Under the pieces are notes generated by a model that searched no databases, was not told the origin of the DNA, and was given only the letters and a program-made list of their open reading frames with translations. Shown here piece by piece: positions 2,731-17,577 of a DNA stretch of 21,734 nt. The position numbers and the translations under genes were made by a program. Each line of letters starts with the position of its first letter. Within the stretch, counting starts at the first letter, position 1. Origin of the DNA: a virus; the IMG/VR virus record IMGVR_UViG_3300011116_000307, positions 1 through 21,734 of that record; one strand, 5' to 3'.

Positions 2731-3112
2731 TACGACCCCCTATTAGGTAGATCATCGCTTTAGCTAGGTACTCCGTATTTTCATCGAAGTAGGCGATGCC
2801 AGAGTTGCACTCGTGGCAGAGCAGGCCCCTTATTTCTAGGGTCTTATGGTTATGATCTATTGCGAGTTTCGAGATCTCGTTTTCTACGCCGCATATAGCG
2901 CATCTATTCTTCTGTACTTGTAGGAGCTCTTCATAGTCTGATTTTACCCTACGCATAAACCACCTCTGCTGATTTCGACAGTCCCTGCATAGGTGTCGCC
3001 GTTTATTAGCCGCGCGGTTAGCGAATTGGAAAGCCTCTATAGGTAATATGCGATCGCAGCATTTACAGTATTTCTCATCTTTACGCGTCTGTTTCTTCGT
3101 CCGTCTCGTCAT
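2624..3112 (-). CDS. Recombination endonuclease VII-type HNH nuclease, 162 aa
   Basis: This resembles T4 endonuclease VII-like and related HNH nucleases. There are two zinc-binding Cys pairs: C16/C19 with C42/C45 in an N-terminal treble-clef-like part, and C71/C74 with C99/C102 around the His-Me finger. The catalytic segment is IDHNHKT (85-91) followed by RGLLCHECN (95-103). Such enzymes resolve branched DNA or nick during packaging; free-standing copies can also be homing endonucleases. The gene overlaps its upstream neighbour by 32 nt. Its basic C-terminal tail, roughly residues 127-162, is encoded across the start of the next gene and lies outside the conserved domain. Confidence 0.82.
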   Translation of the reverse strand: MTRRTKKQTRKDEKYCKCCDRILPIEAFQFANRAANKRRHLCRDCRNQQRWFMRRVKSDYEELLQVQKNRCAICGVENEISKLAIDHNHKTLEIRGLLCHECNSGIAYFDENTEYLAKAMIYLIGGRNDKSFSVAGLNPKYDFKYYGGVSGLRQKTGKRKRV

Positions 3113-3290
3113 TATCTGGATCTAGTCCTAACGCATATTGGCGATCTTCCGCACTTAATGAGTTAAACATTATCAGTAAAGCGTTCACAGTCCGATTTAA
3201 AATAGATTCGATCGCGTCAAAACTTAACGCTTCGTCTGTAGTTAATTCAGTTTCTACTTCTCCTATGGAGAGACTTATATTTAGAGTCAT
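3081..3290 (-). CDS. Small acidic hypothetical protein, 69 aa
   Basis: Function is not recognised. The protein is acidic throughout and ends in a run of Asp, Glu and Thr (DPDNDETDEETDA). It has a strand-rich N-terminus and a central helix-like region, and no Cys or membrane segment. ATG 3290 has a good ribosome binding site (GGAGGG, about 6 nt upstream). It is the first gene after the 397-bp non-coding region, so it probably leads the accessory transcript. The acidic tail overlaps the start of the HNH gene by 32 nt. Small acidic early phage proteins are sometimes DNA mimics, but nothing here proves that. Confidence 0.6.
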   Translation of the reverse strand: MTLNISLSIGEVETELTTDEALSFDAIESILNRTVNALLIMFNSLSAEDRQYALGLDPDNDETDEETDA

Positions 3291-3687
3291 TACTTGCCCT
3301 CCATTGGTTAGGTCTTATCGGTTGGTATTTTATCTCTGTTTATCTTTTGTTTTTTATTGTTTTTATATATAGACCAGAGCCAGGAGCTAAAGGAGAAAAG
3401 CCCCCCTACCCCCCATAAATTTTAAATTCTTTTATGGTTGGTATGGAAGGATCTCTCTAGCTTCTAGTTTCGGTTTAGACCGTCGCCTATCGCTGTCGGA
3501 GTTCCAGCCCCCAGTCTTATCGACCAGGGCAGAATATAGACCAGAGAAGAGACATAGGCAGGATATGACACGCCAGAAAAGGTAAAGGCCCTAGATCTGT
3601 TAAATCCGCCTCGGTTAAACCAGACCTAGAGCCTATTCTGCCCCAGCACCCTCTAGAAGGGCAGAATACTTAAATACCTATAACTAC
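3291..3687. promoter_or_regulatory. Repeat-rich intergenic region, likely promoter/regulatory
   Basis: This is the only non-coding stretch over 300 bp. It holds three copies of the 10-mer GGGCAGAATA or its complement (3527..3536, 3634..3643 inverted, 3659..3668), two copies of ATATAGACCAGAG (3366..3378, 3534..3546), and a C6-TA-C6 run (3401..3414, so two G6 tracts on the coding strand). It also has AT-rich tracts near 3336..3370 and 3415..3435. On the minus strand both 13-mer copies read CTCTGGTCTATAT, so their ends could act as -10 elements. The region separates the replication operon from the accessory genes. No ORF over about 25 codons with a ribosome binding site was found. Confidence 0.5.
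3634..3668 (-). terminator. 10-bp inverted repeat after the replication operon
   Basis: TATTCTGCCC (3634..3643) and GGGCAGAATA (3659..3668) form a perfect 10-bp stem with a 15-nt loop, beginning 19 nt beyond the stop codon of the last replication-operon gene. The position suits a terminator, but the minus strand continues GGCTCTAGG with no T-run, so intrinsic termination is doubtful. A third copy at 3527..3536 suggests a protein-binding operator or mRNA-end stem instead. Confidence 0.35.
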
Positions 3688-4206
3688 CTATAGAAGCCTG
3701 CTGTACGCGTCTATAAACCGCTTTACAGTCCCATTTTGAGGCATATAGGTATAGAGCTTAGAGATAGGTACTTTCCAGGTTTCCTCACCTTCGAGCTTAT
3801 ATTCGGTTACGCGTGCCATTTTGACAGGTAAGAAACCGACGATATATAGATTATCTAGGGTCGTACCCTTAGTTAGAAAAACTATATCTCGCTCTCTATC
3901 GTTAGCTCTTACGATAAGGCTCTGGCCTGTAGTCCAGCGCACCTCGATATTGTTACCTACATCGGCAGTTTTCTTACCAGTGCCTAAGCCGTTCCACTGC
4001 ATATTGAGTTTTCTAGCTACGCCTATCTCTGACCCATAAGCCATAGACATACACCAGAAACGCTCCTCATTACTAGCCCAGGCTGTATGGCGAGTATGAG
4101 GATGATCTGTACCCATAGTGTTTATAGACCACTGGATAAATTCGGTAGCTGCCTGTCGAGCTCTATTCTTCTCGTGAGCTGACAGGTTAAGAGTCCTATC
4201 GTTCAC
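3688..4206 (-). CDS. PD-(D/E)XK nuclease-like phage protein, 172 aa
   Basis: The core reads E60 (GSEIGVARKL), then TADVGNNIEVRWT (80-92), a strand SLIVRANDRERDIVFLT and a later YIVGFLP. This matches a widespread phage family in which a conserved D-V-G-x3-EVR element follows an N-terminal helix Glu; the E / D / E-x-R arrangement is reminiscent of PD-(D/E)XK nucleases (E60, D82, E88, R90). The spacing between D82 and E88 is short for the superfamily, so catalytic activity is not assured. It starts at GTG 4206 in a GTGA overlap with the Rad52-like gene. Paired with an annealing protein, it could supply end resection, as exonucleases do in Red-like systems. Confidence 0.5.
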   Translation of the reverse strand: MNDRTLNLSAHEKNRARQAATEFIQWSINTMGTDHPHTRHTAWASNEERFWCMSMAYGSEIGVARKLNMQWNGLGTGKKTADVGNNIEVRWTTGQSLIVRANDRERDIVFLTKGTTLDNLYIVGFLPVKMARVTEYKLEGEETWKVPISKLYTYMPQNGTVKRFIDAYSRLL

Positions 4207-7896: not shown

Positions 7897-8424
7897 TCAG
7901 ACTGTGTTTTTGATTCCGTAAAGTGTGGCGGTGCTGTATTGCTTAAAGCCGTCTGAAGTTGTTGCATTGTAGAAACTAATTTCAGTTATTGCCGAAGTCT
8001 GTGACCATAAGCCAGCGACAAAAGATAATGTATTACCTGTTGAAGAATTATTCTCAGTCACGCCATCCGCGCTGAAAGATTTGTTATTGGTACCAGCATA
8101 ATTAGGAATATATACCTGCATACTTCCAAAAGTGCTAGCAGTAGATGAGTCTCCTTGTATTAAACCGATTAGTGTTGTTGTTCCATTACTACTTGCCACA
8201 TTTGAACCGTCATATCCTTCTAATCTTCTCCAAGTGCGGTTAGTTGTTGCGCCGTTAATTTTCATTCCTAAAGCCCAAGATGAACCTGCTACGGCTCCAT
8301 TGGAGCGATGCGACAAGACACATAGAAGGTCGGTGTAATCCGCAGTAATTGAACTAAAAGTAATTTCAGAAGCCCCACCGCTTCCGACTGTGACGGTGGC
8401 TATTGCTTGATAAGTGAGTGCCAT
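7897..8424 (-). CDS. Tail-tip/receptor-binding paralogue 3, 175 aa
   Basis: This is the third of three consecutive paralogues. The N-terminus YQAIATVTVGSGGASEITF (5-23) runs into SSITADYTDLLCVLS. The middle part is variable, and the C-terminus GLWSQTSAITEISFYN...YSTATLYGIKN is shared with the two genes upstream. The family looks like an all-beta, concanavalin- or jelly-roll-like domain found at the ends of phage tail-fibre regions, consistent with receptor recognition. It lacks the LQFNSDTGSNY stretch present in the other two. It starts 2 nt after the stop of its neighbour. Confidence 0.6.
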   Translation of the reverse strand: MALTYQAIATVTVGSGGASEITFSSITADYTDLLCVLSHRSNGAVAGSSWALGMKINGATTNRTWRRLEGYDGSNVASSNGTTTLIGLIQGDSSTASTFGSMQVYIPNYAGTNNKSFSADGVTENNSSTGNTLSFVAGLWSQTSAITEISFYNATTSDGFKQYSTATLYGIKNTV

Positions 8425-8426
8425 AG

Positions 8427-8939
8427 TTACTCTGCTTTCACGCCGTAAAGGCTAAAAACTGTTCCAGAAATCCAAGGAGCATCGCTTCTGCCTGAATCTA
8501 AACTAAGCGAAGTAATCGCGCTCGTGCTACGCCATAAACCAACCCACGCGCTAACGGCTTGACCTGTTGCAGAATCATTTGTTGAGTTGCGCGAAATAAA
8601 AGTTTTGTTGGTTGTCGTGTTTGAATAGTTTTGAATTTGAATTATTGCTGTTCCTCTCACGGTAGTAAAACCGCCAAAGAGTGCTCGTGTTTGGCTAGTT
8701 TGACGGCCTGAAGTTGCGCTCGTGCCGTCACCTGCTAACCAAGTAACCGAATAATTGGAACCTGTATCGCTATTGAAAGTGATGTTGGGATTCGTTGCGC
8801 TTGCGCCTTGATTTGAAATCGCGCCACCGATAACAACGATTAAATCTGTGAAACTTCCACTAATGCTAGAAAACGAAACGGTTTGGGTATTGCTACCAAG
8901 AGTCGTAGTGGCTATGCAGTCATAGGTCGCTTTTGGCAT
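8427..8939 (-). CDS. Tail-tip/receptor-binding paralogue 2, 170 aa
   Basis: This paralogue shares the IATTTLG....VSFSSISGSFTDL opening, the ITFNSDTGSNY middle motif and the GLWRSTSAITSLSLD...FSLYGVKAE ending with its two neighbours. The central 60 or so residues differ strongly, as expected for a receptor-contacting surface. The start overlaps the upstream stop (TAATG), so it is translated with paralogue 1. A fibre or receptor-binding role is inferred from position after the fibre gene and from the beta-rich composition. Confidence 0.6.
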   Translation of the reverse strand: MPKATYDCIATTTLGSNTQTVSFSSISGSFTDLIVVIGGAISNQGASATNPNITFNSDTGSNYSVTWLAGDGTSATSGRQTSQTRALFGGFTTVRGTAIIQIQNYSNTTTNKTFISRNSTNDSATGQAVSAWVGLWRSTSAITSLSLDSGRSDAPWISGTVFSLYGVKAE

Positions 8940-9532
8940 TATGCCGCCTTTATTCCGTAAAGTGCGAAGTGGCTGTATTGGTCAAGGTTTCTAGAATCAC
9001 CGAAAATTTTGATGCTAGTAATGGCATTGGTACTTTGCCATAAACCACTATAAAAGCGTACTGCGCCAAAAGTGGCATCATTCATTTCATAACCACTTAA
9101 ACTTCTAACGGTCTTGTGTTTATTGGTATTTGCATAATCTAAAATATCTAAAACAAAAGCGCCGAATCTAACTGTGCTTAAATTGTTATCTGGAAATGGA
9201 CACACAACGATAGAAGTTTGACTTGCGGAACCAGAAGCACTCGCGGCACTACCGTTACCGTCTAATAAATGTCTAGCGTAATTGCTTCCAGTATCGGAAT
9301 TAAATTGAAGCAAGCCATTTACTGCAATAGCATTATTATTTACTACTTTAGCAATTCCTCTTACTTGGAGATGACTGTAAGTGCCAGGAATTGAACTAAA
9401 AGTCGCGCTAGAACTTCCACCACTTCCCACGCTGACTGTGGCTATGGATTCAAAAGAGGTGGCTGCGCCTGCGACTAGACTCCTATAACCTAAAGCGGAG
9501 GCATTAGCTAGCGTGCTAAGCAGAGGAGACAT
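8939..9532 (-). CDS. Tail-tip/receptor-binding paralogue 1, 197 aa
   Basis: This is the longest of the three. It has an N-terminal extension of about 28 residues (MSPLLSTLANASALGYRSL...) before the shared FESIATVSVGSGGSSSATF opening. It then has SHLQVRG, LQFNSDTGSNYARHLLDG and the common ending GLWQSTNAITSIKIFG...YSHFALYGIKAA. The extension may be what attaches the group to the fibre encoded just upstream, because the other two lack it. The protein is Ser/Thr/Asn-rich with no Cys-based or enzyme motif. Confidence 0.6.
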   Translation of the reverse strand: MSPLLSTLANASALGYRSLVAGAATSFESIATVSVGSGGSSSATFSSIPGTYSHLQVRGIAKVVNNNAIAVNGLLQFNSDTGSNYARHLLDGNGSAASASGSASQTSIVVCPFPDNNLSTVRFGAFVLDILDYANTNKHKTVRSLSGYEMNDATFGAVRFYSGLWQSTNAITSIKIFGDSRNLDQYSHFALYGIKAA

Positions 9533-14168: not shown

Positions 14169-14599
14169 CTAACGCCTCCTCTTACCGCCTTGCATAGCCC
14201 TACGGCTATTACTCTGCTCTGTCAGGATAAATTTTATCGCTGAATAAAGAGCAGGATCGCAGTTAAGGAGCTCATTAGGGCTTATCCCAGTAGCCACCGA
14301 CACAGAAGCGATCTCCCATATTTCTCCGCGTCGGTCTATCCATTTTTTGAGTCGAAAACTATATCTATGTCCGAGAATTGGTCGATATAGGCATCGCCGA
14401 ATTCTAAATTAGTATCGCCTTTTTTTAATTGCAAATAGTGAGCGAACCACCAGAGATCGCTTTCTTTCTGCTCTTCTAATAGACGCTTACGCCATCCTGT
14501 CTTAAAGTGGCTTTCGAAGGCCACCTTAGCCGATGGCGTAAGGTCGTAGGAGATTTCTTTACCGTCTTTTTTAGTTAGCTTTAACTGGATGCTAGCCAT
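14169..14599 (-). CDS. Tail assembly chaperone G-T fusion by -1 frameshift, 143 aa
   Basis: Reading begins at ATG 14599 and shifts back one base at the slippery heptamer A-AAA-AAT (14348..14342); base 14342 is read twice. Translation then continues in a frame that is open to TAG at 14169. The 57 added residues include SPNELLNCDPALYSAIKFIL, the kind of sequence seen in the T-part of siphovirus chaperones, and end in a basic KRRR. The stop is 3 nt before the next gene, so the reading fills a space that would otherwise be non-coding. Lambda gpG/gpGT and most siphoviruses use the same device to make two chaperone forms that load the tape measure. The frameshift itself is inferred from sequence. 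Confidence 0.85.
14336..14599 (-). CDS. Tail assembly chaperone, short form (G-like), 87 aa
   Basis: This small protein follows the major tail protein gene, as G-type chaperones do. It opens with a beta strand SIQLKLTKKDGKEISYDL and continues with an aromatic, charged helical part (FHFKTGWRKRLLEEQKESDLWWFAHYLQ region, in pieces). The frame stops at TAG 14338..14336, just 4 nt beyond the AAAAAAT slip site, exactly as expected for the unshifted product. ATG 14599 has AAGGGA 4 nt upstream, identical to the leader of the glycosyltransferase at 6816. Confidence 0.8.
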   Translation of the reverse strand: MASIQLKLTKKDGKEISYDLTPSAKVAFESHFKTGWRKRLLEEQKESDLWWFAHYLQLKKGDTNLEFGDAYIDQFSDIDIVFDSKNG

Positions 14600-15038: not shown

Positions 15039-15437
15039 TTAGCCGATCAGATCTATAACATAGCGGTAAGCAAGGTAATCGTTACCTGCTACCTGTACAG
15101 ATCCAGCAGTAGCCGAAGCTACCCTTACGGTCTGTACGGTGCCGCTAAGAGTCGCGTCTGCCTCGATCGCAGCTTTTACCGAGGTAGAACCAGATCCTGC
15201 TAAATAGCCGTCTAGTTTTGCCTGCGCTGCCTGTTCGCTCATCCGTCCCACGATGAGTAAAACCGTACAGGTCGCAGAATCGAAGCCACGATTAAAAGTG
15301 GCATCGAAAGTCATATCTAATTGTCCCACTATACCAGCAGGGACATTAACTGAATCTGGAATATGATCGTAGGTCTTTAAACCGCTAATCGTTGCCAGCC
15401 TTTCTTTAAGTTTTGTGCGCACGCTGGAGGGAACCAT
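15039..15437 (-). CDS. Tail terminator/head-tail joining candidate, 132 aa
   Basis: The protein has an N-terminal helix (VRTKLKERLATISGLKTYDHIPD), a central strand with ATCTVLLIVGRMSEQAAQAKLDGYLAG, and ends with YLAYRYVIDLIG. The alternation of one helix, one strand block and a second helix, with a short length of about 130, matches tail-terminator proteins. Its place between the connector and the major tail protein supports this. The start overlaps the connector stop (TAATG at 15437). No direct motif proves it. Confidence 0.6.
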   Translation of the reverse strand: MVPSSVRTKLKERLATISGLKTYDHIPDSVNVPAGIVGQLDMTFDATFNRGFDSATCTVLLIVGRMSEQAAQAKLDGYLAGSGSTSVKAAIEADATLSGTVQTVRVASATAGSVQVAGNDYLAYRYVIDLIG

Positions 15438-16060
15438 TACGCAGCTACCTCTTTTTTGTAAGCTCGCACCATAGCTGTTACATCTCGACCTAGTGGGCTC
15501 ATACGAATAGCTCCTAGATCTCCTAGACCTAATACGCCTCCTGGCGAATCTTTACGCTTATATAAATCTGCTGTAAGTATCTGGCAGGCCATCTCTATAT
15601 CATCTGGCACGCTAGGCCATCCCCATCGAGCCGTAACCTGTACGCCTGGGCGAAGGCCATTAGAAAATATGCCAGGAAACATAGGGAAGGTATAGGTAGT
15701 GTTTACCATCGTAAGTTGAGTATAGGGCCGACCTAGAGAAGGCGCAGTAAGTGGATCTAATAAATAATCAGTATTTAAAGTTAAGGTAGTTTCGAAAACG
15801 CCATCGCCATCTTCATCTAAAGCGACGGCAAGGCTAGAGGTAGTACCAATATCATCTACATAGGCAAAAACATCGTTATAAGCGCGATACTGACGCGCTG
15901 AGGCTGAGGAATCTAAATAAAATCTACGGTTAGCGATTCTATCTATGCTGCGCGATGCAGACTCGACCATAGTTTCTAAAATTGCATCGTCTGTATTATC
16001 GCTAATCGAGAGATAACTCTTCATAGCGTTTAGCGTGGTATAGCCGTTAGTTATAGCCAT
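15437..16060 (-). CDS. Head-tail connector protein (HK97 gp6-like), 207 aa
   Basis: The N-terminus Y.TLNAMKSYLSISDNTDDAILETMVESASRSIDRIANRRFY (7-47) is the hallmark of phage head-tail connectors of the gp6/gp15 type, which form a ring below the portal. A beta domain follows (VALDEDGDGVFETTLTLNTDYLL, about 80-102), then PGVQVTARWGWPSVPDDIEMACQILTADLYKRKDS (139-173). ATG 16058..16060 has only a weak AAAGA ribosome binding site and lies inside the 3' arm of a long stem, with a 32-codon leader ORF reading over it (see those entries), so its translation is probably controlled. Confidence 0.8.
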   Translation of the reverse strand: MAITNGYTTLNAMKSYLSISDNTDDAILETMVESASRSIDRIANRRFYLDSSASARQYRAYNDVFAYVDDIGTTSSLAVALDEDGDGVFETTLTLNTDYLLDPLTAPSLGRPYTQLTMVNTTYTFPMFPGIFSNGLRPGVQVTARWGWPSVPDDIEMACQILTADLYKRKDSPGGVLGLGDLGAIRMSPLGRDVTAMVRAYKKEVAA

Positions 16061-16145
16061 AGAGGATCTTTCGCATCGTTAGGGACAGGTAACAGAAAGA
16101 AAGCATACGCAAAATATAAGGCGCTCCTAACCTTATATTTTCCAT
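16047..16145 (-). CDS. Candidate 32-codon leader ORF overlapping the connector start
   Basis: ATG 16145 has AGGAG 4 nt upstream (16150..16154). The frame is open for 32 codons and ends at TAA 16047, 14 nt past the ATG of the connector gene, in another frame. The peptide begins MENIRLGAPYILRMLSFCYL and is not recognised. The ORF covers most of the 164-bp gap after the capsid gene. It could be a functional small protein, but its relation to the stem 16051..16176 suggests a leader whose translation opens that structure. Confidence 0.4.
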   Translation of the reverse strand: MENIRLGAPYILRMLSFCYLSLTMRKILYGYN

Positions 16146-16176
16146 AATACTCCTAAAAAATCCTCTATGGTTATAA
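16051..16176 (-). promoter_or_regulatory. Long stem hiding the connector start codon
   Basis: Arms at 16155..16176 and 16051..16072 pair over 22 positions on the minus strand: 19 Watson-Crick pairs, 2 G-U wobbles and one A-C mismatch. The start codon (16058..16060) lies within the paired core CCATAGAGGAT/ATCCTCTATGG. The enclosed 82 nt hold the ribosome binding site and start of the leader ORF plus a nested 11-bp hairpin. This would block initiation at the connector unless opened. Confidence 0.55.
16111..16141 (-). promoter_or_regulatory. Nested AT-rich 11-bp hairpin in the leader ORF
   Basis: AAAATATAAGG (16111..16121) and CCTTATATTTT (16131..16141) form a perfect 11-bp stem with a 9-nt loop. 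On the minus strand the loop reads TTAGGAGCG. It covers codons 2-12 of the leader ORF and stops 2 nt short of its ATG, so it might also modulate that start. Confidence 0.5.
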
Positions 16177-16202
16177 CTGCTGGAGCCTTACGGCTCCAGC
16201 AG
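16177..16202 (-). terminator. Strong hairpin after the major capsid gene
   Basis: CTGCTGGAGCC and GGCTCCAGCAG form a perfect GC-rich 11-bp stem with a 4-nt loop, 22 nt beyond the capsid stop codon. The strand continues TTATAACC, with its T6 tract only 16 nt later, so it may be a weak terminator or a 3' stability stem that raises capsid mRNA over the downstream genes. Confidence 0.6.
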
Positions 16203-16224
16203 CTTATTTAGTTGTTAGCTAGAC

Positions 16225-17577
16225 CTAGAAAGTAGGTGCAGCTAGACCAGTACCGTTAATCTGGGCGAAAGCCTTAGGATAACGGAGTGAGGTGTAAGCG
16301 AACATACCGTACATAACGATATTTAGAGCCACCTTACCAGCAGGCTCTTCGAAGGTTACATAGGTAGGCGAGTTCGCCTCTTCCCATAGGTGAGACTCGT
16401 TTAGATCTACTACATAAATCGCGTCTTGATTTGTAGCCGCTCCCTTATTTGTAACGATATTTGCATCGGTAATAATTGGGAGTCCGAGTAGTGAATAACC
16501 TGAGTTAGTTCCATAGTTCGGATAACCGTTACCAGTACCCATCGCGTTAGTAGGGTTATACGCAGTTGGTACGACGAGTGGACGGTTTGTTGAATCGAGA
16601 CCACTGAGGAAAAATCCGAGACGGCGTGGGTGCATAAGAATCGCATTTGGCGACGCATAGACCTCGCTCTGGATTTGTTGAATCGCATCGGCGATCTTCG
16701 GATAAACACCTGCGACTGTACCAGTGGTAGCAGTGTAAGTAACCAAAATACCAGTCGTCATCTTGTCGATACCGAGTGGCTGACCATTTGTACCAGTACC
16801 GTTAAGCAATAGATCATCGAGCTTAGTGTGGTAAGCGCGAATTAGATCTGTTAGCACGATGCTCTCGATATTGTAACCACGAAGTAGCGCCTGCTTAGAA
16901 ACGCTGTTTTGACCTGCGACAGTGTTTACATTAACTGTTAGGGTCGAATCTGCTGGATCCTGGCTAGTCGCTGCTGTGTTTTGTGAAGTTTGCGCTGCTA
17001 CTGCTGTACCTGTACCGATTAGGGAAAGTACGACGCTCATACCTTGCGGAGGTAGTACATGCTTACGGCTCGCGTCGGCGAATGGACGGCCTGCGCGTAG
17101 CTTAGGTGCATATAGATCTACTAGGTACTGTGGCACTACGAGGCCAGCGAAATCGGCTGTAGATGATGCGCGATATTCGACTGCCATTTCGTGTTGGTGG
17201 CGCTTAATACGATCTGAAGCTGCTACATCTGTACCGAAGTGAGCTTTAACAGCATCTGCAAGGAAGCTATGCTCTGCGCGCTCGTGATAAGTCACTGGCT
17301 CGCTTACTACCTTGATCTGTTCGCGCTTTTCGGTTGGCTTATTAGCATCCACCTTAGCTGCGAGATCTGCTGCCTTCGCGTTGCGTAGCTCTATGTCTGA
17401 GATTTGTTCGATTCTTTCATCGAGTTTTTTTACTTCGAGATTTAGAGCTTCGATATTAGCGAGCTCTACTTCTGAAACATCGCGTACCTCTTCGGCAGCG
17501 CGATCGACGATCGCCTGGATCATCGAGGTTTTGCTCTCACGCTTTTCGCGTAGAGACTCTAGAAAACTATTAGCCAT
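16225..17577 (-). CDS. Major capsid protein, HK97 fold, 450 aa
   Basis: This is the main shell protein. Residues 1-75 form a charged helical delta domain (SLREKRESKTSMIQAIVDRAAE, then LNLEVKKLDERIEQISDIELR), which acts as scaffold and is removed by the prohead protease; cleavage probably falls around 80-105. The shell domain has VVPQYLVDLYAPKLRAGRPFADASRK and later LDDLLLNGTGTNGQPLGI (about 254-271), the recognisable E-loop/P-domain pattern of HK97 capsids, and ends ASLRYPKAFAQI-like. It starts at ATG 17577 with GAGAGGA as ribosome binding site, which also pairs in an 8-bp stem. A strong hairpin follows the stop. Confidence 0.9.
   Translation of the reverse strand: MANSFLESLREKRESKTSMIQAIVDRAAEEVRDVSEVELANIEALNLEVKKLDERIEQISDIELRNAKAADLAAKVDANKPTEKREQIKVVSEPVTYHERAEHSFLADAVKAHFGTDVAASDRIKRHQHEMAVEYRASSTADFAGLVVPQYLVDLYAPKLRAGRPFADASRKHVLPPQGMSVVLSLIGTGTAVAAQTSQNTAATSQDPADSTLTVNVNTVAGQNSVSKQALLRGYNIESIVLTDLIRAYHTKLDDLLLNGTGTNGQPLGIDKMTTGILVTYTATTGTVAGVYPKIADAIQQIQSEVYASPNAILMHPRRLGFFLSGLDSTNRPLVVPTAYNPTNAMGTGNGYPNYGTNSGYSLLGLPIITDANIVTNKGAATNQDAIYVVDLNESHLWEEANSPTYVTFEEPAGKVALNIVMYGMFAYTSLRYPKAFAQINGTGLAAPTF

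Follow-up and report, generated by a model that had tools for sequence, protein, structure and literature searches.

A candidate translational-coupling switch between the capsid and connector genes in a clade of uncultured tailed phages

The DNA analyzed here, the window, is a viral record of 21.7 kb. Its head genes (terminase, portal, protease, capsid, connector and tail terminator) all lie on the minus strand, and every position given below refers to that strand unless stated otherwise. In the mRNA, the interval leading from the capsid gene to the connector gene contains a GC-rich hairpin, the 5' arm of a long stem, the AGGAG and ATG of a short leader ORF, an AT-rich hairpin and the 3' arm of the stem, in this order. 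The features are as follows.

16225..17577, minus strand: major capsid gene, upstream of the candidate switch (PHROG major head protein phrog_2263, E 2.3e-39)
16177..16202, minus strand: GC-rich hairpin with a GUAA loop, directly upstream of the 5' arm (from folding)
16155..16176, minus strand: 5' arm of the putative start-sequestering stem (from pairing, folding and compensatory changes in relatives)
16150..16154, minus strand: Shine-Dalgarno sequence (SD) AGGAG of the leader, adjoining the 5' arm (from the sequence)
16047..16145, minus strand: leader ORF of 32 codons, MENIRLGAPYILRMLSFCYLSLTMRKILYGYN followed by a stop (from the sequence and comparison with the relative L001)
16111..16141, minus strand: AT-rich hairpin of 11 bp inside the leader ORF (from folding)
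16051..16072, minus strand: 3' arm of the stem, holding the connector start codon (from pairing, folding and compensatory changes in relatives)
16051..16053, minus strand: TAA formed from connector codons 3-4 (ATGGCTATAA), the +9 class stop used by most relatives (108/127)
16047..16049, minus strand: TAA in the other non-connector frame (ATGGCTATAACTAA), the +13 class stop used in the window (15/127)
15437..16060, minus strand: head-tail connector gene, start codon 16060..16058 (phrog_442 head-tail adaptor, E 2.9e-14)
15039..15437, minus strand: tail terminator gene (phrog_17840, E 2.7e-26)

The connector of the window has a weak SD of its own, with a match of 3 nt. The start of the tail terminator gene overlaps the connector stop as TAATG (sequence GCGTAATGG), and its translation is probably chained in this way to that of the connector.

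Several further features of the window were recorded. A probable -1 frameshift candidate of a tail assembly chaperone lies at 14170..14599 (minus strand): the ORF 14336..14599 ends with TCA AAA AAT GGA TAG and contains the slippery run A AAA AAT, after which the -1 frame continues as KKWIDRRGEIWEIASVSV...GGKRRR and a stop, to about position 14170. Three tandem paralogous genes, possibly encoding tail-tip or receptor-binding proteins, follow the tail genes at 7897..9532 (minus strand) and have 58-68 identical residues over 179-203 aligned columns. The ORFs 3081..3290 and 3688..4206 leave a gap that holds a strong stem at 3599..3621 (AGGCTCTAGGTCTG/CAGATCTAGGGCCT, score 32).

A reading made from the letters of the window alone (the sequence-only reading) had claimed a stem of 22 positions with 21 pairs, including two G-U pairs, over the connector start. 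Both its coordinates and its pair count are exact: the 5' arm at 16176..16155 (TTATAACCATAGAGGATTTTTT) pairs with the 3' arm at 16072..16051 (GAAAGATCCTCTATGGCTATAA), the one remaining position being an A-C mismatch, and the connector ATG (16060..16058) falls within the 3' arm, as had been claimed. Folding of the region 16230..16040, proposed together with the stem as a check on it, yielded -74 kcal/mol compared to -45.5 +/- 4 kcal/mol for shuffled sequences (z -7.1; 0 of 200 shuffles as low). The stem score at the connector start is 45, against a maximum of 32 in 2000 dinucleotide shuffles, and the best stem elsewhere on the sense strand of the window scores 33.5, so that the connector-start stem is the strongest helix there. 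No second switch of the same kind was seen at the 31 other gene starts tested in the window, the best of which scores 22.5. A known RNA family was ruled out as the identity of the switch, since a scan of the window against the Rfam families (release 15) at the gathering score gave 0 matches.

Relatives were collected from IMG/VR by protein-based searches and one DNA-pattern search, which yielded 202 distinct regions upstream of homologous connectors; they are metagenomic assemblies, and single-nucleotide indels were taken from the assemblies. The stem scores are bimodal with a gap, 127 regions scoring about 29-50 and 75 regions about 24.5 or lower. The 127 stem-bearing regions belong to one clade of uncultured tailed phages: in the connector protein tree, which predates the last search for relatives and has a long branch, missing intermediates and uncertain rooting, the stem-bearing genes form one side of a branch with support 100/96. 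By a simple motif test, the capsid C-terminal motif precedes the switch in 124 of the 127 regions, and the position of the stem is locked to the connector start codon in all members. More distant relatives have neither stem nor leader and mostly have a stronger ribosome binding site. Seven cultured phages in the phage collection match at <60% identity. Of the three examined, phiPsal1 and Jflix2 combine a strong SD with the lack of any comparable stem, and the record of EBPR siphovirus 6 is cut at the gene start. The two nearest MAG contigs, from Acidimicrobiia (56%) and Microbacteriaceae (37%), lack a strong stem as well. The cultured relatives infect Rhodococcus and Pontimonas, and both MAG matches are actinobacterial.

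The arms differ between subgroups of the clade and nevertheless pair: CCATAGAGGAT/ATCCTCTATGG in the window, CCATTCAGAAT/ATTCTGAATGG in L004, CCATCCAGGA/TCCTGGATGG in L010, CTATGATTGGTAT/ATACCAATCATGG in L047 and CTATGGCCAGTAT/ATACTGGCCATGG in L284 (L numbers denote individual relatives). In L308 (CCACAGATGATC/GATCATCTGTGG) the connector start codon itself is GTG, and its pairing partner has changed as well. In a set of 31 distinct core arm pairs, standard pairing holds for 97.0% of cells, compared to 79.3% after shuffling and 33-46% in slid registers; changes on both sides are seen at 10 of 16 pairs, and the covariation score is 0.616, reached in 0 of 500 shuffles, against 0.258. Changes in the arms were then counted on a nucleotide tree inferred from the remainder of the connector gene and hence independent of the arms. 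On this tree, 49 double compensatory, 47 single pair-preserving and 19 pair-breaking changes were inferred; all 19 pair-breaking changes fall at positions -12..-7 and none in the inner 10 positions, -6..+3. Registers slid by 1-3 positions give only 1-8 double changes; the arm register was picked by best pairing and so leans towards pairing, which is mostly answered by these slid controls and by the position fixed at the start codon. In the compared stems of the clade, G-U wobbles number 144 and A-C mismatches 15, where a DNA-level element would lead one to expect a ratio near 1; the structure is therefore one of the sense RNA rather than of the DNA. The sequence-only reading had named relatives that keep the leader region with no compensatory changes in the arms as the outcome that would speak against it; the compensatory changes found in both arms, including the 49 doubles, are the opposite of this outcome. 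Together with predicted folding, the comparison shows the connector start codon to be held in a long stem across the clade.

The leader ORF had been described as starting between the arms, running into the 3' arm and ending past the connector ATG. In the window it starts with the ATG at 16145, has 32 codons and ends with a TAA whose last base, 16047, is base 14 of the connector ORF, and in the clade both its start and its stop are kept: a short ORF that starts between the arms, passes through the 3' arm and stops at 0, +9 or +13 was found in 126 of the 127 stem-bearing regions, compared to a chance ORF of the leader type in two of the 75 stem-less ones. An ATG with an SD match of at least 3 bases opens the leader in 125 of the 127 regions and GTG in one. 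The stop is of the +9 class (TGG CTA TAA) in 108 regions, of the +13 class (TAT AAC TAA) in 15 and of the 0 class (TGATG) in three. The last three (L369, L370 and L371), in which the leader stop overlaps the connector start, have a wholly different stem, TGACCATCAGCAGCTCT/AGAGCTGCTGATGGCCA. The stop phase has shifted several times on the tree, and a 1-nt deletion is visible behind the change in two cases, the window compared to L001, its nearest relative, and L338 compared to L308, L310 and L377. Since ATGGCTATAACTAA has a stop in both non-connector frames, such shifts are harmless to the device. The frame change of the window relative to L001 could be an assembly error. Fusion of leader and connector by frameshifting was rejected, as no single shift direction serves the stop phases +9, +13 and 0 and no slippery heptamer was seen at the overlap.

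The leaders range from 14 to about 42 codons, and their sequences are unrelated between subgroups. Codons 4-7 of the 29 distinct 14-codon leaders vary mostly at the first and second codon positions, the constant part of these leaders being the 3' arm, and a conserved leader peptide was rejected for the short leaders, whose middle codons vary freely. The leader peptide of the window has no match in PHROG. Many otherwise unrelated long leaders (for example, L001, L003, L010, L287 and L308), in both stop phases, have (P)VP near their end, a possible ribosome pause site; the leader of the window crosses the PVP-coding bases in a different frame.

The +9 stop of the leader is formed from connector codons 3-4, and codon 3 (Ile) is ATA wherever this stop is used. 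All 112 stem-bearing regions in this comparison have ATA there (112 of 112), compared to 27% among the other Ile codons of the same genes, although members of the clade are not independent samples. ATA is likewise found in all 73 loci that came from the protein search only, a set free of the bias of the DNA-pattern search, and in each of the 64 regions in which the stem stops short of codon 3. In members with valine in place of Thr4 the leader stop becomes TAG. ATA is lost only in two of the three TGATG members, which have ATT and need no ATA, and in L395, which also has ATT; the exceptions thus sit exactly where the coupling model permits them. L395 has neither leader nor 3' arm, and a remnant of its 5' arm lies directly before the ATG, which makes it a natural loss of the device; L407 has kept the stem and lost the leader stop. 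The device is thus not indispensable.

Two smaller hairpins had also been reported. The GC-rich one (16202..16177) indeed lies directly before the 5' arm, and in relatives a hairpin of different sequence occupies this site (median -23 kcal/mol in 71 regions), so that a hairpin is kept here throughout the clade. It was ruled out as an intrinsic terminator by the missing U-tract after it on the minus (sense) strand; the only terminator-like match is on the plus strand. In short-leader members (for example, L049 and L056) the stem of this hairpin covaries, and many keep a pyrimidine-rich apical loop, ACCCTTCC. The AT-rich hairpin of 11 bp within the leader is present at 16141..16111 as described, but it is shared by the closest relatives only, with one compensatory change in L001, an imperfect form in L002 and none seen further out. 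An extension of this hairpin is predicted to pair the leader ATG of the window (P unpaired 0.01), and the hairpin may hold back the leader's own start there.

These observations are, in our judgment, very probably best explained by a switch that acts in cis on the late phage mRNA and works by translational coupling. The median predicted probability of being unpaired is 0.003 for connector starts with the stem and 0.38 for those without it; for the leader starts of the stem-bearing family it is 0.82, that is, they are usually open. The connector's own SD match is mostly 3-4 nt where the stem is present, compared to 5-6 nt in 47 of the 75 regions where it is absent. The low openness and the weaker connector SD in the presence of the device fit coupling by a leader ribosome. 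In such a switch the stem would block direct initiation at the connector, and a ribosome loaded at the leader's own SD would run through the 3' arm, melt it and end on or just past the connector start. It could then move back by a few bases and restart at the connector AUG, or it could leave the start open for a new ribosome, and both restart and new-initiation models of coupling are current (PMC12548453; PMC7538156). The short overlaps favor restarting, whereas GGAGG sites hidden in the stem of some members favor new initiation; in members such as L287, whose good connector SD (GGAGG) lies inside the stem, de novo initiation after melting may dominate over restart. Because the leader peptide is not conserved and the frame has changed repeatedly, the comparison points to the act of translating and of ending at the connector start, rather than the peptide, as the probable selected trait.

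In tailed phages, neighboring genes must supply the capsid protein in hundreds of copies and the connector in about a dozen. In view of these copy numbers, the likely purpose of the switch would be to pass only a fraction of leader ribosomes to the connector, which is encoded directly after the very abundant capsid protein, keeping it far below the capsid level, and the tail terminator, the next low-copy gene, would be coupled along via TAATG.

The stem could instead be mainly an RNA-processing signal, an RNase III-type site that splits the capsid mRNA from the connector mRNA, with the GC-rich hairpin guarding the 3' end of the capsid message and the leader being secondary. A stem of about 20 bp beside a stable hairpin after a highly expressed gene is generally a plausible site for this, and the GC-rich hairpin is kept throughout the clade. 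Processing does not, however, explain why the stem always lies over the connector start with the SD and start of the leader always in its loop, nor why an ATA codon located past the stem preserves the leader stop, and in some members the stem is as short as about 14-16 pairs. We consider this explanation unlikely. Even less probable is a sensing attenuator of the ErmCL type, in which the nascent peptide of the long leaders would stall the ribosome and the stalled state would control the connector start. The (P)VP motif does lie about 9-14 codons before the stop in many long leaders, whichever the stop phase, but the 14-codon leaders of the largest subgroup lack it and vary freely in their middle codons, the window reads its PVP-coding bases in another frame, and there is no candidate signal. 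That the leader is a genuine small gene whose peptide has a function, its overlap with the connector being incidental, would agree with the intact frame, SD and start in 126 of 127 regions; we regard it as very improbable, given the variation of codons 4-7 in the set of 29 distinct short leaders, which falls mostly on first and second positions while the stem accounts for the remainder, unrelated sequences of 14 to about 42 codons, several phase changes and the missing PHROG match of the window leader. Inverted repeats are common in intergenic phage DNA, but a chance repeat or a DNA-level element (a cruciform or a mobile element with inverted ends) is hardly credible with a stem score never reached by shuffles, arms whose covariation proceeds through G-U-compatible steps, and only on the sense strand, and a stem locked to the start codon in all members.

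A translational-coupling switch of this kind bears on a question for which, to our knowledge, answers are rarely known, namely, how the capsid:connector ratio is set in tailed phages. Our fuller proposal is that freshwater-type tailed phages share, clade-wide, a peptide-independent leader ORF whose sole job would be to carry ribosomes through an RNA lock; that it arose once, has been kept by stem covariation and a stop-preserving connector codon and sets the capsid:connector ratio; and that it is the first example of its kind in the head operon of a tailed phage. We hold this whole proposal, judged from sequence comparison, to be about evenly balanced between true and false. The switch is compact and has more than 100 natural variants, including frame changes, a moved stop and a natural deletion, which makes it testable in a simple reporter. 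It would also mean that non-conserved mini-ORFs, discarded by gene finders, can function through the act of translation, and the clade supplies ready-made coupling parts of different sequence.

The type of mechanism is known from plasmids; in the open-access literature we found no report of its apparent use in a tailed-phage head operon, nor any description of a leader ORF at the capsid-connector junction of tailed phages. ErmCL-ermC attenuators combine a leader ORF with a sequestered start of the next gene and respond to a drug-stalled ribosome within the leader, whereas the phage leader continues across the arm and stops at the connector start; a conserved stalling peptide is absent from the phage leaders, whose sequences are unrelated between subgroups. 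In the com-mom operon of phage Mu, as at the connector, the start codon of a tailed-phage gene is buried in an RNA stem, which is opened there by binding of the zinc-finger protein Com (PMC6483171). No such RNA-binding protein is encoded by the present leaders, which have 14 to 42 codons and no conserved sequence. Closer are the coat-lysis pair of MS2 and fr and the VII-IX pair of f1, where the start of a phage gene expressed at a low level is silenced by structure and opened by ribosomes of the upstream frame (review PMC12548453). The gene start under structure and the upstream frame passing through it recur at the connector: the upstream frame crosses the structure and stops within a few nucleotides of the downstream start in 126 of 127 regions, and the downstream start lies in predicted local RNA structure (P unpaired 0.003, covarying stem). 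The upstream frame is, however, a phage gene (coat or VII) in those pairs, whereas the present switch would use a mini-ORF dedicated to it, which is not conserved, has an SD of its own and is distinct from the capsid gene. The layout is shared with tap-repA of plasmid R1 and S004-repA of SGI1, where a short leader ORF that has a ribosome site of its own likewise overlaps the gene under control; according to PMC7826253 and PMC12779154 (citing Blomberg 1992), the leader frame overlaps the main start there and a stem-loop blocks it. Translation of the leader is needed in cis, as experiments on S004-repA show: RepA is lost when the leader has a premature stop, and supplying the peptide in trans gives no rescue (PMC7826253). 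These systems regulate a replication initiator, usually with an antisense RNA, and serve plasmid copy-number control; in R1 the antisense RNA CopA acts on the leader. The phage switch, by contrast, targets a head-tail connector between two structural genes. As an analogue, neither homologous to these systems nor a member of their group, the phage switch would work in the way of tap-repA and S004-repA.
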